Shown: one piece after another, positions 31,897 to 37,041 of the stretch
Layout: each line of letters opens with the position of its first letter
Numbering within the stretch: the first letter of the stretch is position 1
Source of the DNA: Candidatus Saccharimonadota bacterium
Lineage (GTDB): Bacteria; Patescibacteriota; Saccharimonadia; Saccharimonadales; Saccharimonadaceae
Direction: 5' to 3'
Length of the DNA: 37,041 nucleotides
NCBI GenBank assembly: GCA_017510075.1
Contig: JAFWNY010000001.1
Span: 1 to 37,041, forward strand
Program-made: the position numbers and the translations under genes
Notes under the pieces: model-generated
What the model saw: only the letters and a program-made list of their open reading frames with translations
Told to the model about the DNA's origin: nothing
Databases searched by the model: none

Positions 31897-32886
31897 TCAA
31901 ACATTGAATTTAAACTCAACCACATCGCCTTCCTGCATGATATAGGTCTTACCTTCGGTGCGGAGGAGGCCGGCTTGTTTGACGGCGAGCTCGGAACCGA
32001 GGCGGGCAAGGTCATCGTATTTGCAGACGTTGGCGGCGATAAAGCCACGCTGAAAATCGGTGTGGATGGTGCCGGCGGCTTCGGGGGCGGTGGAGCCTTT
32101 TTTGATAGTCCAGGCGCGGCATTCTTTTTTACCGGCGGTGAGGAAGGACTGAAGACCTAAAGTGTCGTAGGCGGCTTTGATTAGCTCGCCCAAAGCATCA
32201 TCTTTAACGCCATACGATTCGAGAAACTCCTTACGCTCCTCGCGACTCATTTCCGCCATCTCCTCCTCCAACTTAGCGTTGACAAAAATAGCTTTAGCAG
32301 GCTTCACAAGATCCTTAAGCTGAGATTGCAGAGCTTGATCAGTAAGACCAGATTCATCTACGTTAAACATATAAATTACTGGTTTATCTGTAAGATACGG
32401 GATATTCTCGTCAGACGGATCTTTTTTACGCTTAGCTTCAATCTTTGCACGAGTTTCCTCATCGGCTAGCTGCAATTCTAAATTAACGATATCGATGTCA
32501 TCCTTAGCTTGCGCCACAACATCGTCTTCAGGCTGGTTGTCAGCGCGGACAATGTCGTCATTTTTGAAAGCCCTTACGACATGGCAGATGGCTTGACATT
32601 CGCGAATGTGAGCGAGAAATCTATTGCCAAGACCTTCGCCCTTGGAGGCGCCTTGTACTAGGCCGGCGATGTCGACAAATTCAACGGTGGCGGGGACGAC
32701 TTTGTCGGTGTCGTATATTTTGGCAAGGACATCTAGGCGCTCGTCGGGGACTGGGACGATACCAACGTTTGGCTCGATGGTAGCAAAAGGATAATTCGCG
32801 GCGAGGGCGCCAGCGTTTGTAAGTGCATTAAATAGTGTAGACTTGCCGACGTTTGGGAGGCCGACGATTCCTATCTTTAAATTCAT
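31897..32886 (-). CDS. ychF: Ribosome-associated ATPase YchF (OLA1 family)
   Basis: 329 residues from ATG 32886 (MNLKIGIVGLPNVGKS), somewhat shorter than the usual about 363. Motifs: G1 GLPNVGKS, ANYPFATIEPNVG, DIAGLVQGAS, and FNVDES in place of NKxD, the YchF signature for ATP rather than GTP. A charged helical insert follows, and the C-terminal TGS domain (ECRAWTIKKGSTAPEAAGTIH...TYIMQEGDVVEFKFNV) is complete. YchF binds the ribosome and modulates stress responses. The first seven codons and the upstream region are the sequence copied in every repeat of the cassette array on the right. The stop is TGA. Confidence 0.96.
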   Translation of the reverse strand: MNLKIGIVGLPNVGKSTLFNALTNAGALAANYPFATIEPNVGIVPVPDERLDVLAKIYDTDKVVPATVEFVDIAGLVQGASKGEGLGNRFLAHIRECQAICHVVRAFKNDDIVRADNQPEDDVVAQAKDDIDIVNLELQLADEETRAKIEAKRKKDPSDENIPYLTDKPVIYMFNVDESGLTDQALQSQLKDLVKPAKAIFVNAKLEEEMAEMSREERKEFLESYGVKDDALGELIKAAYDTLGLQSFLTAGKKECRAWTIKKGSTAPEAAGTIHTDFQRGFIAANVCKYDDLARLGSELAVKQAGLLRTEGKTYIMQEGDVVEFKFNV

Positions 32887-32936
32887 AAACAACCTGTGAT
32901 ATCTGTTATTATAGATATCATTATAACATATTTTGG
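32866..32936 (+). repeat. Array repeat copy (a): ychF start, leader and promoter
   Basis: Contains GATTCCTATCTTTAAATTCA, the reverse complement of ychF codons 1-7, then ACAACCTG, the ychF leader and the TGTTATAAT box. Only the right half of the palindrome is present, since the left side here is ychF coding sequence. This looks like the original anchor site. Confidence 0.8.
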
Positions 32937-32944
32937 TGTATAAT
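32920..32944. promoter_or_regulatory. Divergent promoter elements between ychF and the first cassette gene
   Basis: On the minus strand TGTTATAAT (hexamer 32920-32925) serves ychF with a leader of about 27 nt. On the plus strand TATAAT at 32939-32944 ends seven bases before ATG 32952. The minus-strand element lies within repeat copy (a) and is also present in copy (c); copy (d) has TATAGT. Confidence 0.65.
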
Positions 32945-32951
32945 GTTTAAT

Positions 32952-33908
32952 ATGAGTAATAAAGAGCTTGAGCCTAAAGAAAGTAGCCCTGATTTATCTG
33001 AAGCGGAGAGAGTCTTGGGTTCGATGCCATCGTTTGAAGACTTCAGGCGTGGAGTTGAAGAGAAGAATGGTATTGTCTCTGGGTTAGATAAAATTGCGGA
33101 AAAATATAGGTATGGCGAAGAGCTTAGGGAAACACTAGAGATGATTGTTCCACAAATTGTAGATTACTTTGATGATTCGGAGGTTGTCTTAAAAGTGCTT
33201 GATAACTGTCCAATTTTTATGGTTGAACCAGGGAAAAATTTAAGCGAGGCTGCGAATGAGTATTTTGGTACAAATGAAGAGTTGCCAACAATAGCGTCTG
33301 GTGGCGCATCTATTATACCTAGAATTACTGAGGACGGCCGTATTGAAGTTAAAAAAGGAATTGTTTTAAGGAGCGATCATGAGGGTAGTTTACAAACTTT
33401 AGTTCACGAAATATGTCATCAAGTTGCATCTGTAAACAAAGAACCACAACTTGAATCTGATGGAAGAATAAGAATTGATATTGGACTATCGTCTGAGTAT
33501 TATGGAGTAGACGAGAATGGCGAGATGAGAATGGTTGAATCGAAGCGAGATTTCTTAGAGGAAATGATGAACGCTTACGATACAGAAAAAATCATGAAGG
33601 GCATTAAAGGGGATAGTTTTGAAAGTAATGAGTATGGTATTTTGAGAAAGATAGCTCATGCATGTTCAGCTGATGCGATTCAAAAGTTAGAGCGATTAAG
33701 AATTCATGGTGATAATACAGGGAATTCTGTTGACTATGAAAAACTTGACGATGTTAGTTTGGCGCTAGATAATATCATGAATATTCCTCATAAAATTGCT
33801 TTATCAAAAGAGATGGCTGGTGGTGATAGAGAGAAGGCTAAAATCATTCGTCAAGAAATGGACCAGCGTAATTATGAAGAAGCAGTTAATGGCTTGAATG
33901 GTTTTTAA
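32952..33908 (+). CDS. HExxH zinc metallopeptidase-like protein (cassette 1)
   Basis: 318 residues from ATG 32952; an ATG three codons upstream overlaps the TATAAT box. No signal peptide. SLQTLVHEICHQVAS carries H152-E153-x-x-H156, a zincin motif, and KRDFLEEMMNAYDTE about 50 residues later offers E203/E204 as third ligand, as in gluzincins. The N-terminal part is acidic and helical, the C-terminus helical. Substrate unknown. It stands alone between repeats (a) and (b), ending six bases before (b), with A/T-rich codons unlike ychF. Confidence 0.7.
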   Translation: MSNKELEPKESSPDLSEAERVLGSMPSFEDFRRGVEEKNGIVSGLDKIAEKYRYGEELRETLEMIVPQIVDYFDDSEVVLKVLDNCPIFMVEPGKNLSEAANEYFGTNEELPTIASGGASIIPRITEDGRIEVKKGIVLRSDHEGSLQTLVHEICHQVASVNKEPQLESDGRIRIDIGLSSEYYGVDENGEMRMVESKRDFLEEMMNAYDTEKIMKGIKGDSFESNEYGILRKIAHACSADAIQKLERLRIHGDNTGNSVDYEKLDDVSLALDNIMNIPHKIALSKEMAGGDREKAKIIRQEMDQRNYEEAVNGLNGF

Positions 33909-33913
33909 AAATT

Positions 33914-33963
33914 AGGTTGGTTTAAAAATTCAAGATTCCGATCTTTAAATTCAAAACCAACCT
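33914..33963 (+). repeat. Array repeat copy (b): perfect outer palindrome
   Basis: Outer arms AGGTTGGTTT (33914-33923) and AAACCAACCT (33954-33963) are perfectly complementary. Inside is AAGAT-TCCG-ATCTT (33932-33945) flanked by unequal A/T segments. Beyond 33963 the similarity to the ychF leader fades. The ychF-like mini-frame here would begin with TTG. Confidence 0.85.
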
Positions 33964-34075
33964 TTCTGTCCGTTAAATATAGCTATTATTATATCATTTT
34001 TGTATATTATTGATAAGCGGTAATGGTTTTTAGTGTATAATTAATAGTAAGTAATTGATGAAAGGAATAAAGCAT

Positions 34076-34780
34076 ATGCAAATTTTTATGAATGGCCACG
34101 GAGAAAAGGATTTTGCGCCAGACGAAATAGTAGCCAGTGTTACTTTTAATTATCATGCAAGTACCTATGATGAGGCTTTGAAAGGTGGGGTTGAAAAAGT
34201 TAAAAATTATATAGATAGTATCGCAGAAACAACAGATTTTAAAACTGAGGATTTTAAAACTAAAGCATATTCTGTACAAGAGCGTTTCCATATAAATAGA
34301 TTAGACCCTAAAACTGAAGCTGATTTAGATAAGAATTTACAGAAGCGCGTTTCAGATGGATTTTTCTTTACGCAATTTGCGTGTTTAGAATTTGATTATG
34401 ATAAAATGCGTTTAGCTAAGCTTCTTGCTACTTCGTCAAAAATCCCAAATGCCCCAATGTTGCACATTGATTTTACATTGAAAGATATTGAATCAAAAAA
34501 GAGAGAGCTTATATCTGTTGCTTATGAAGATGCAAAGAAGAAAGCTGAAGCCTTGGCGGTTGCCGCCAATAAGAATTTGAGAGATTGTGTGCGCGTAGAA
34601 ATTGACTATGTTTCACATAACGAGATGAGAGGCGATATGATGTTTGATAAAGCGGCTGCATTCAGGGGTGCACCAATGGATGATTTTGAGCAACAAATAA
34701 AAAATATCGACGAAACCTTCAAACCTGATGATATTACTTTATCAAAAGAAATCAGTTGCGTTTGGGAAACAAGTAATTAG
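34076..34780 (+). CDS. SIMPL-domain (DUF541) protein (cassette 2)
   Basis: 234 residues from ATG 34076, chosen because AAAGGAA lies about eight bases upstream. The pattern is that of SIMPL proteins: MNGHGEKDFAPDEIVASVTFNYHASTYDEAL at the start, FFTQFACLEFDYDKMRLAKLL in the middle and AYEDAKKKAEALAVAANKNL with a following VRVEIDYVS. Most SIMPL proteins are periplasmic or surface; this one has no signal peptide, so it should be cytoplasmic. TATAAT at 34036-34041 is a likely -10. It shares its unit with the convergent helical gene. Confidence 0.8.
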   Translation: MQIFMNGHGEKDFAPDEIVASVTFNYHASTYDEALKGGVEKVKNYIDSIAETTDFKTEDFKTKAYSVQERFHINRLDPKTEADLDKNLQKRVSDGFFFTQFACLEFDYDKMRLAKLLATSSKIPNAPMLHIDFTLKDIESKKRELISVAYEDAKKKAEALAVAANKNLRDCVRVEIDYVSHNEMRGDMMFDKAAAFRGAPMDDFEQQIKNIDETFKPDDITLSKEISCVWETSN

Positions 34781-34822
34781 GGATGAAAATAGGATGAGTT
34801 TAGCTGATATTCCTGCTACTTT

Positions 34823-35275
34823 TTAAACGGAAAGTTTATCTGCGACTATTTTTACAGATTTTTCTAAGGTTAGAGCGAGATTATTAAAGAAACATAGCGC
34901 ATAAATGTTCAAATATAAATCTGGGGAATAGTCGAAAAATGAGATTAACTCCCACCAGGCACTTCTTATTAGCTCTGAAACATCATCATATTGCAGTTTT
35001 TCCCTAGAAGACGCTTGGGCAAGTTTTATAGATGAATTTAGAATTGATTCTGCGCAAGAGTCAAAGCGTTTTACTTCACGTATAATTTGAGATTCATTTT
35101 CTGCTAGATTTAGCTTTAAACTTTCTGCGTTCATATTGTATATATCAAGATTAAGTTCAGTCATAGTTTCTGATAATTTTTTGAATGCAGCTAGCCATTC
35201 ATCAATAGTGTGTTTTCCGGACGCAACGATAATTTTGTCTAAATAGTTTTTTGTAAATTCCTCATTTTTGATCAT
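34823..35275 (-). CDS. Helical protein of unknown function (cassette 2)
   Basis: 150 residues; not recognised. Almost entirely helical and soluble: MIKNEEFTKNYLDKIIVASG, EWLAAFKKLSETMTELNLDIY, then SELIRSAWWELISFFDYSPD. On the minus strand TGATATAAT (hexamer 35299-35304) and a weak GAGGG precede the ATG. It is convergent to the SIMPL gene; no repeat separates the two, so they may be one unit or an older fused pair. Confidence 0.6.
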   Translation of the reverse strand: MIKNEEFTKNYLDKIIVASGKHTIDEWLAAFKKLSETMTELNLDIYNMNAESLKLNLAENESQIIREVKRFDSCAESILNSSIKLAQASSREKLQYDDVSELIRSAWWELISFFDYSPDLYLNIYALCFFNNLALTLEKSVKIVADKLSV

Positions 35276-35343
35276 TATCTAGCCCTCTTATTTATTAAAT
35301 TATATCATTTTTGAGCCGCCCGATATCAAATCGGCTTCTCATT

Positions 35344-35431
35344 GGTCGGTTTAGAAATTCAAGATTCCGATCTTTAGTATTTAAACCAACCTGTATCTGC
35401 TATTATAGGTATATATTATAACATATTTTGG
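35344..35431 (+). repeat. Array repeat copy (c)
   Basis: GGTCGGTTTA pairs with TAAACCAACC (one mismatch), with AAGAT-TCCG-ATCTT inside. The right side continues as a diverged ychF leader and keeps TGTTATAAT and the ATATTTTGG end found in copy (a). Confidence 0.85.
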
Positions 35432-35490
35432 AGGTGTCTGAGGATTTTTATCCGGGCTGTGTTCTATGTGGACTTTTTGTTATATAGATA

Positions 35491-36414
35491 TTATGTTTTT
35501 GAATAGATTGTTCGTAAGCAACCGCTTATTTGTCGACCATCTGGATCATCTTCAGTGCCTATCCTGTCACGATAACTGCTATACATATCGCCTCGTATCG
35601 TATGGTTAAATTCTTTAGGGCAAGTTCCTTTATATTCTTTTTTGTCATTAGCTATAATAAGATTTACAGACGCTAGTTTTAGATTGTTTTGTTTTATCAC
35701 TTTAGCAATCTCAGACTCTATCGATGCAAAGTCTATCCAATCAAGGTTATATATATCCAAATTATTAGGATAAGGCGCTATTGTTAAATATATTTCCATA
35801 TTATCATTTCCTTTTTCTTCTAGCTGAGCCAGAAAATCATCGAATGAATCAAATGGGCCATTAAGCACGGAAGATTCAGCGCGGTTTATAATGGTAGTGT
35901 GAGCATTATAAGGTATTGATTGCGAGATAACATCTTCAAGGAGTTTGATGCCATATTTTTCATAATAATAATCTTCTAAATTAAAACCATATTTTGTTTC
36001 ATAGTAATTATCCCGAAAACTATTGTCGTAGTGATAGGCACTTACTCTAAATGTGGCGTTTTTCAATGATGTAGACGAAAAAACTACTTGACAATAGCCA
36101 GAGTCAAACCATCCGCAAGAGGGGTCACCAGATACATAATAGAAAGTATCATTCTTATATTTTTCAGTTAAGTACGATTCGTATTCTGATAGCGATGGTC
36201 CGACAAACATTGACTTTACGTTTTTGCATATTGGAAGAATGATAGCGAAGAAAAGAAAAATTGACCCTAAAATTGAAGAAACAATTATAATTATATGTTT
36301 CGTGTTTATTATATTATTTTTATAATTGCTCGACTGTTCAGACAATTGTTGTTGTAATTCGTTTTGAGGGTTAGTTTGTGTATTATATTCTTGGAATTCC
36401 TGCTCATTGTCCAT
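35491..36414 (-). CDS. Membrane-anchored extracytoplasmic protein, unknown function (cassette 3)
   Basis: 307 residues; not recognised. An Asn/Gln-rich cytoplasmic N-terminus of about 38 residues precedes one membrane helix (HIIIIVSSILGSIFLFFAIILPIC). The outer domain holds four Cys (SCGW, YCQV, GTCPKE, GCLR), probably two disulfides, and many Tyr/Asp. TGCTATAAT ends six bases before the ATG, so the gene has its own leaderless-type promoter as well as the promoter carried by repeat (d). Confidence 0.65.
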   Translation of the reverse strand: MDNEQEFQEYNTQTNPQNELQQQLSEQSSNYKNNIINTKHIIIIVSSILGSIFLFFAIILPICKNVKSMFVGPSLSEYESYLTEKYKNDTFYYVSGDPSCGWFDSGYCQVVFSSTSLKNATFRVSAYHYDNSFRDNYYETKYGFNLEDYYYEKYGIKLLEDVISQSIPYNAHTTIINRAESSVLNGPFDSFDDFLAQLEEKGNDNMEIYLTIAPYPNNLDIYNLDWIDFASIESEIAKVIKQNNLKLASVNLIIANDKKEYKGTCPKEFNHTIRGDMYSSYRDRIGTEDDPDGRQISGCLRTIYSKT

Positions 36415-36480
36415 AACTTAATTATAGCATTTTTCGTTTACTCTTTTAAAATTGATTTTGAAGAAAATGGGATTAAAATC

Positions 36481-36564
36481 AGGTTAGTTTATTAATTCAA
36501 GATTCCGATCTTTAAATTCATAACCTGCCTGTGATATCTGTTATTATAGATATAACTATAACAT
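36481..36564 (+). repeat. Array repeat copy (d)
   Basis: AGGTTAGTTT and AACCTGCCT form a weaker outer pair around the same AAGAT-TCCG-ATCTT core. From 36529 to 36553 the sequence is identical to the ychF leader copy (a). On the minus strand it encodes ATG plus eight codons, MNLKIGILN, and a stop. Confidence 0.85.
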
Positions 36565-36618
36565 GTTCTTATGTTATATATATTATATATGTTATTATAT
36601 AGCTATGAGGAGATATAA

Positions 36619-37032
36619 ATGAAAATATGTATTTGCTGCAGTTTATCATTCACCGACGAAGTGAAGAAAATAGCTGATAGATTGCATGAGCTTGGACACG
36701 AAGTGCTTTTGCCTAATGGGGTTATAGTTGATGCGATTCATAAACTAGATTTTGATCCAGTTGGAGCTAAACGAGGAAACGGCTATGATTTTGTTAGAGA
36801 GCATTTCAAGAAGGTTGAAGAATCTGATGCTATACTAGTATGTAACTTTACAAAAAATGGTATAGACAACTATGTTGGAGCAAATACGTTTTTAGAAATG
36901 GGATTTGCATATTATGTTAAAAAACCAATTTATGCGTTAAACCCATTACCGGATTATAAATATATAAATGATGAACTATTGAATTTTGATGTTATGGTTA
37001 TAAATGGTGATTTATCAGAGATAAAAGAATAG
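36619..37032 (+). CDS. Nucleoside 2-deoxyribosyltransferase-like protein (cassette 4)
   Basis: 137 residues, about the size of the family. GAGGAGA precedes the ATG. MKICICCSLSF and the KIADRLHELGHEVLLPNG Rossmann-like start, then KKVEESDAILVCNFTKNGIDNYVGANTFLEMGFAYYVKKPIYAL, match the 2-deoxyribosyltransferase/TIR-like superfamily. E93 in GANTFLEMG corresponds to the usual catalytic Glu. Members move deoxyribose between bases or hydrolyse nucleotides, including NAD-consuming defence enzymes; which applies is unknown. The stop TAG is completed by the next repeat. Confidence 0.75.
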   Translation: MKICICCSLSFTDEVKKIADRLHELGHEVLLPNGVIVDAIHKLDFDPVGAKRGNGYDFVREHFKKVEESDAILVCNFTKNGIDNYVGANTFLEMGFAYYVKKPIYALNPLPDYKYINDELLNFDVMVINGDLSEIKE

Positions 37033-37041
37033 GTTGGTTTA
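37031..37041 (+). repeat. Array repeat copy (e), truncated by the window edge
   Basis: The last 11 bases, AGGTTGGTTTA, equal the start of copy (b). The preceding base with AG forms the stop codon of the last gene. Confidence 0.7.

Follow-up and report, generated by a model that had tools for sequence, protein, structure and literature searches.

What is a 50-bp imperfect palindrome doing, in repeated copies, beside the start of a housekeeping gene in a Saccharibacteria genome, and is it read as a folded single strand in the manner of the attC sites of integrons, as the original prediction proposed? Saccharibacteria are episymbionts with tiny genomes, and how they gain genes is poorly understood. 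The window examined here (the whole stretch of DNA analysed, 37,041 nucleotides) is the entire contig C23 of a draft genome of 668 kb in 32 contigs that is 83% complete, and the closest named relatives of its YchF protein come from rumen and gut Candidatus Saccharibacteria MAGs. The palindrome belongs to a series of sites that separate short gene cassettes inserted at the start of ychF, with the following features (cassette limits were taken from the sequence, sites 2 and 3 from the sequence and a site model).

31897-32886, minus strand: ychF, 329 aa (TIGR00092, 389.8 bits, and translation), whose first codons are the insertion target.
32866-32895, plus strand: site 0, hybrid half-site on the ychF side, with host ychF to the left of CC 32870-32871 and the half-site of cassette 1 to its right.
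32872-33939, plus strand: cassette 1, 1068 bp, from junction CC to junction CC.
32908-32913, minus strand: predicted -10 element TATAAT of the ychF promoter, borne by cassette 1 and read from the sequence.
32943-33908, plus strand: cassette 1 gene, 321 aa, no Pfam or NCBIfam match.
33914-33963, plus strand: site 1, the initial finding, a 50-bp imperfect palindrome with its centre at CC 33938-33939.
33940-35368, plus strand: cassette 2, 1429 bp.
34055-34780, plus strand: cassette 2 gene A, SIMPL (DUF541) family (PF04402, 4e-19).
34823-35275, minus strand: cassette 2 gene B, 150 aa, no Pfam match.
35343-35392, plus strand: site 2, full.
35369-36506, plus strand: cassette 3, 1138 bp.
35491-36414, minus strand: cassette 3 gene, 307 aa, with an apparent N-terminal membrane segment (by eye), no Pfam match.
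36481-36530, plus strand: site 3, full, with a degenerate right outer arm.
36507-37041, plus strand: cassette 4, cut at the contig end.
36619-37032, plus strand: cassette 4 gene, nucleoside 2-deoxyribosyltransferase-like (PF05014, 7e-5, under the curated cut-off).
37031-37041, plus strand: site 4, first 11 bases, the contig end cutting the repeat.
C24, 205-240 (another contig of the same genome): terminal half-site of the array.

Site 1 (33914-33963) reads AGGTTGGTTT AAAAATTC AAGAT TCCG ATCTT TAAATTCA AAACCAACCT, and the perfect 10-bp outer arms and the inner AAGAT/TCCG/ATCTT hairpin originally described are both present in it. Folded as single-stranded DNA it reaches -11.8 kcal/mol, compared with -3.2 +/- 1.6 in shuffled versions (z -5.5, with none of 200 shuffles equal to it). 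The claim that the repeat folds as a hairpin thus stands for site 1, but the other two full copies in the window fold much more poorly (z -1.9 and -2.7). Unpaired bases had also been described within an unequal A/T region, but both arms are 23 nt long and can pair without gaps, so that this region may be taken as mismatched (consensus positions 10, 11, 15 and 18) instead of bulged. In the site consensus, AGGTTGGTTTARAAATTCAAGATTCCGATCTTTAAATTCATAACCAACCT, these two 23-nt arms flank TCCG, and the CC lies exactly at the centre (positions 25-26 of 50). Each cassette ends in a left half-site, and the next begins with a right half-site. A sequence-only site model matches site 1 with an E-value of 1e-18 (site 1 being one of its 31 building sequences), and the site series is far beyond chance. 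An Rfam scan of 32700-37041 gave no match. On the minus strand of the full sites (e.g., 33914-33963), a short ORF, MNLKIGILNF, is possible, with a TAA in the left arm; this may be chance.

The relation of the array to ychF is apparent from its two ends. Site 0 joins host sequence on its left to cassette sequence on its right, while terminal sites join cassette on the left to host on the right. The right half-site holds the first ychF codons on the minus strand (ATG AAT TTA AAG ATC GGA), and the ychF start in the window, MNLKIGIVG, is supplied by cassette 1. When the host parts of site 0 and of the terminal site are joined, the native start of the window genome reads, in frame, as MGLRFQFKIGIVG, and empty loci carry a native AAATTCATATCTGTTATTATA at the ychF start; this target is a shorter site that lacks the outer arms. 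The first ~65 bp are conserved among 86 cassettes and form a leader with the TATAAT and the start of the ychF frame. Because this conserved TATAAT stretch follows the right half, whichever cassette lies next to ychF supplies its start codons and predicted promoter.

The point of exchange was located by comparing wobble positions in site 0, internal sites and empty loci over about 130 loci, with c denoting the base after CC. At c-3, T is found in 71% of occupied site 0 copies, versus 61% of empty loci (p 0.30) and 96% of internal sites (p 1e-5); at c, A is found in 8.5% of occupied site 0 copies, versus 10% of internal sites (p 0.8) and 53% of empty loci (p 1e-7). Further out, site 0 resembles empty loci and not internal sites at c-6, and internal sites and not empty loci at c+6. 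One occupied genome (G111) could be compared with an empty locus (L055) whose ychF is 96% identical, and here the terminal site now carries the host base at c, and site 0 that of the cassette. Finally, a cassette inserted outside ychF in G426, near a partial tRNA-like sequence, has both half-sites, with host flanks ..GATGACCCC and AATCTTAAAA.., placing the junction inside CC. The empty/occupied pair, the off-target insertion and the locus statistics together place the exchange at the central CC, between c-3 and c, instead of at an outer box; that the junction can be fixed to within 2 bp depends on one insertion combined with population statistics. A match within the rnc gene of G341 was judged to be a chance resemblance. 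At L286:5146-6120, an off-ychF cassette has as neighbours a partial tRNA-like sequence and two genes resembling DNA methyltransferases.

Comparable arrays are common among relatives of the window genome. Among 154 ychF loci, nearly all from the same genus with a few from a second genus in the family, about 100 were scored as occupied, while 54 were classed as empty, intermediate or divergent. The site motif was found with up to 3 mismatches in 115 of 174 genomes of the genus, and of 393 genomes in the order, 72 contained sites according to the sequence-only model, all in the window's family apart from two weak matches (E ~6e-4); in a 380-genome sample of the phylum, matches were confined to the window's family. 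Three exact site patterns had no match in viral contigs, and blastn searches of phage and plasmid records gave none either.

The 87 cassettes with both half-sites have a median length of 1001 bp (range 141-2337) and usually combine one or two accessory genes with their own copy of the promoter and start codons of ychF. ORFs are of mixed orientation (83 away from ychF, 36 towards it), and the sites are uniformly oriented within arrays, except for one inverted site in L158. Cassette genes were grouped into 65 families by custom ORF calling, with 18 proteins run through Pfam and the others judged from sequence. The contents include CdiA_C-type nucleases, which form the largest cassette gene family (18 members), Nudix, PemK, SIMPL, deoxyribosyltransferase, methyltransferase, GH13 and MFS proteins. 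Several further arrangements were seen along the way. The 129-130-aa CdiA_C-type nuclease (L134, L149, L164, L184 and others) often has a companion gene next to it, a possible partner. The inverted full site (L158:3261-3309) lies beside a deoxyribosyltransferase cassette and adjoins a tyrosine recombinase gene (1258-2292). Two larger cassettes upstream of ychF hold, as judged by eye, radical-SAM and tRNA-synthetase-like genes (L347, 6.1 kb) and a RepA-like ATPase with a restriction-modification pair (L392, 7.1 kb). At L175:5348-8039 (reverse-complement coordinates), native ychF upstream sequence occurs twice, each time behind a cassette left half-site, with a 2.6-kb spacer.

Cassettes also travel between hosts. 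Shared cassettes are 99.7, 94, 92 and 88% identical where the host ychF genes are 84, 79, 76 and 71% identical, respectively, and near-identical cassettes occupy different array positions and also different genera. Such near-identity across species and genera whose ychF differs by 16-30% shows that cassettes move. Those of the window take part in this exchange: the cassette 1 gene has a counterpart in a cassette from a different species (L295), with a 76% nucleotide match, the gene B half of cassette 2 matches a segment of an array from another genus (L284) at 92% identity over 540 bp, and cassette 4 is 94.6% identical over 560 bp to sequence within the ychF array of another genome (L148).

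Taken together, these results are likely to reflect a mobile array of gene cassettes that is assembled through conservative site-specific recombination by a recombinase acting in trans. A cassette would circularise by recombination between adjacent sites, yielding a circle that bears one full 50-bp site, and this circle could then recombine with the ychF start or with an existing array junction, leaving ychF with a start and a promoter whatever the insert. Each 25-bp half-site would be bound as double-stranded DNA, with the outer AGGTTGGTT arms as a putative outer binding motif.

Which enzyme might act on these sites can be approached from the site itself or from the gene content of the genomes, and the two point to different candidates: a serine recombinase best fits the 2-bp central exchange, and the host Xer best fits the gene content of array genomes. 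None of the 65 families of cassette proteins was recognised as a recombinase (18 proteins via Pfam, the others by sequence). The window genome, at 83% completeness, has an Xer and one accessory tyrosine recombinase, both below the cut-off of the integron-integrase model TIGR02249 (126 and 55 bits versus 265). In ten array genomes that are 92-99% complete (G011, G062, G099, G085, G143, G107, G092, G075, G022 and G013), Xer is the sole tyrosine recombinase match, with no serine recombinase match. Nearly all of the genomes are fragmented drafts that may miss genes.

As one form of the trans-acting mechanism, it is possible, if somewhat doubtful, that a serine recombinase treats the 50-bp site as attP-like, with a central overlap of 2 bp, and the start of ychF as a shorter attB. 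A junction inside a 2-bp centre is what is expected of a serine recombinase and not of tyrosine recombinases, whose spacer is 6-8 bp; the exchange does fall at the central dinucleotide of a 50-bp imperfect palindrome, and the ychF target is without outer arms. Of 68 genomes, 41 encode serine recombinases, in some cases as pairs of neighbouring genes, but a comparison of genomes by hand revealed no obvious association between these enzymes and the arrays, and none of 20 serine-recombinase loci had a convincing array half-site nearby (best 14.9 bits). In addition, array-internal sites would be attP-type on both sides, and large serine integrases do not normally recombine attP-type sites with each other.

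A second form, exploitation of the host Xer as by CTX at dif, with ychF as a dif-like site, appears unlikely. The ten Xer-only genomes speak for it, but candidate dif-like ATWATAGCRCTTATGTTAA sequences in the order (candidates, the dif of the genus itself not being established) do not resemble the array site, and the native ychF half, in contrast to dif, varies at its wobble bases. Nor would a 6-bp Xer spacer with the dyad at its centre be expected to place the junction within CC, and two array genomes (G073 and G058) have no Xer match, possibly through incompleteness. Accessory tyrosine recombinases of a 284-aa type, encoded near ychF in some genomes, were considered as the enzyme and rejected: they are missing from the Xer-only array genomes, and at two of these loci they sit between inverted copies of surface-protein genes. 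At L145:8143-10977 and L188:12929-14150, tyrosine recombinases of 282 and 277 aa lie between long inverted repeats (142 nt at 94% and 84 nt at 98%) that head oppositely oriented surface-protein-like genes, and these are likely to be invertible surface operons in the style of phase variation, about 8-12 kb from ychF.

It is quite improbable that the arrays are instead remnants reshuffled solely by homologous recombination between repeats after natural transformation. Each junction offers ~100 bp of similar sequence on which homologous recombination could act with no need for a special enzyme, and some sites are degenerate; however, this process leaves the insertion outside ychF unexplained, and it sits poorly with a junction that is sharp at CC and with near-identical cassettes in different array positions and genera.

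For the folded strand itself, we compared pairing within sites with that of arms dealt at random. If the arms varied independently the folded-strand reading would suffer, and pairing was in fact no better than random: 781 within sites versus 780.3 +/- 2.3, and 981 versus 980.8 +/- 1.5 between the two ends of one cassette. Across 31 sites there was 1 both-sided change versus 1.9 in shuffled data, and 90.1% paired cells versus 90.4%. The proposal of a site read as a folded single strand is therefore not supported, this test having gone largely against it. Other parts of the original prediction fared better: the cassette array and the outer ends AGGTTGG ... CCAACCT agree with a recombination-type site that is not a canonical attC, and the GTT...AAC boxes do misfit the RYYYAAC ... 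GTTRRRY pattern of the outer attC boxes, with GTT and AAC on the sides opposite to those in attC, which implies another recombinase. In attC itself, recombination takes place at the AAC/GTT box at the edge of the site (PMC4792948). The independent arms, the central crossover and the inverted boxes argue against an attC-type mechanism. A site of which a tyrosine recombinase reads one folded strand, with replication resolving the product, is hence very improbable, even though the site consensus folds strongly as single-stranded DNA, both arms fit one consensus and are thus able to pair, the arrays of short accessory-gene cassettes are integron-like and one-strand exchange would likewise give a fixed junction, since there is no covariation between arms, the crossover is at the dyad centre rather than an outer box, GTT and AAC are reversed, both tyrosine recombinases of the window genome score far under the integron-integrase cut-off and two of the three full window copies fold poorly. 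The dyad symmetry is explained equally well by a protein on two inverted half-sites in double-stranded DNA; with the folded-strand reading unsupported, double-stranded recognition is the simpler account.

Whether the array should be seen more broadly as a cassette-capture platform of one Saccharibacteria family that arose independently of integrons, with duplex 50-bp sites, exchange at a central CC by a trans-acting recombinase, docking at a protein-coding start and insertions kept silent for the host by the cassette promoter and start, is in our judgement evenly balanced. In the open-access papers searched, we found no description of this ychF cassette array. The array offers a concrete and widespread route of single-gene exchange among Saccharibacteria, whose gains are recorded readably at one locus and include toxin-like nucleases, MazF/PemK, Nudix and restriction-modification genes. 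It also exemplifies an element that docks in a housekeeping gene by carrying its own promoter and start codons and, if its recombinase differs from IntI, would represent a second way in which cassette capture has been solved, with possible use as a tool.

Several known systems share part of this organisation. The attP/attB sites of large serine integrases and the tandem SCC elements involve a ~50-bp imperfect palindrome, exchange at a central dinucleotide and a shorter chromosomal target. The ychF array site is likewise an imperfect palindrome of ~50 bp with central exchange and a shorter target, but no serine recombinase lies in or is linked to the array, and insertion recurs at array junctions. 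Xer-exploiting elements such as CTX phage arrays and pdif modules are small and tandem, lack a recombinase of their own and have a site at each junction. The ychF cassettes match them in being small and tandem, without a recognised recombinase and with a site per junction; unlike them, their site is not evidently dif-like and their target is ychF, not dif. Islands and prophages at the 5' end of dusA insert into a housekeeping gene and supply it with a new 5' end and promoter (PMC4482086). In the same way, the ychF cassette restores the 5' end of its target, the MNLKIGIVG start coming from the cassette and an in-frame MGLRFQFKIGIVG being recovered from the flanks, but whereas dusA elements encode their own integrase, ychF cassettes are small, tandem and without a recognised recombinase. 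There is also a parallel with integrons and CALINs, which have the same tandem short cassettes, mostly of one or two accessory genes, with one-orientation sites at each junction, arrays without a nearby integrase and transfer between genera. The ychF array works like an integron array yet is not one, as it did not pass the tests for attC and IntI: no IntI was found in the 83%-complete window genome, and the crossover falls at the centre of a 50-bp palindromic site whose boxes are inverted relative to attC and whose arms show no covariation. Unlike integrons, the ychF array targets the start of a protein-coding gene, and every cassette brings a predicted promoter for the host gene.
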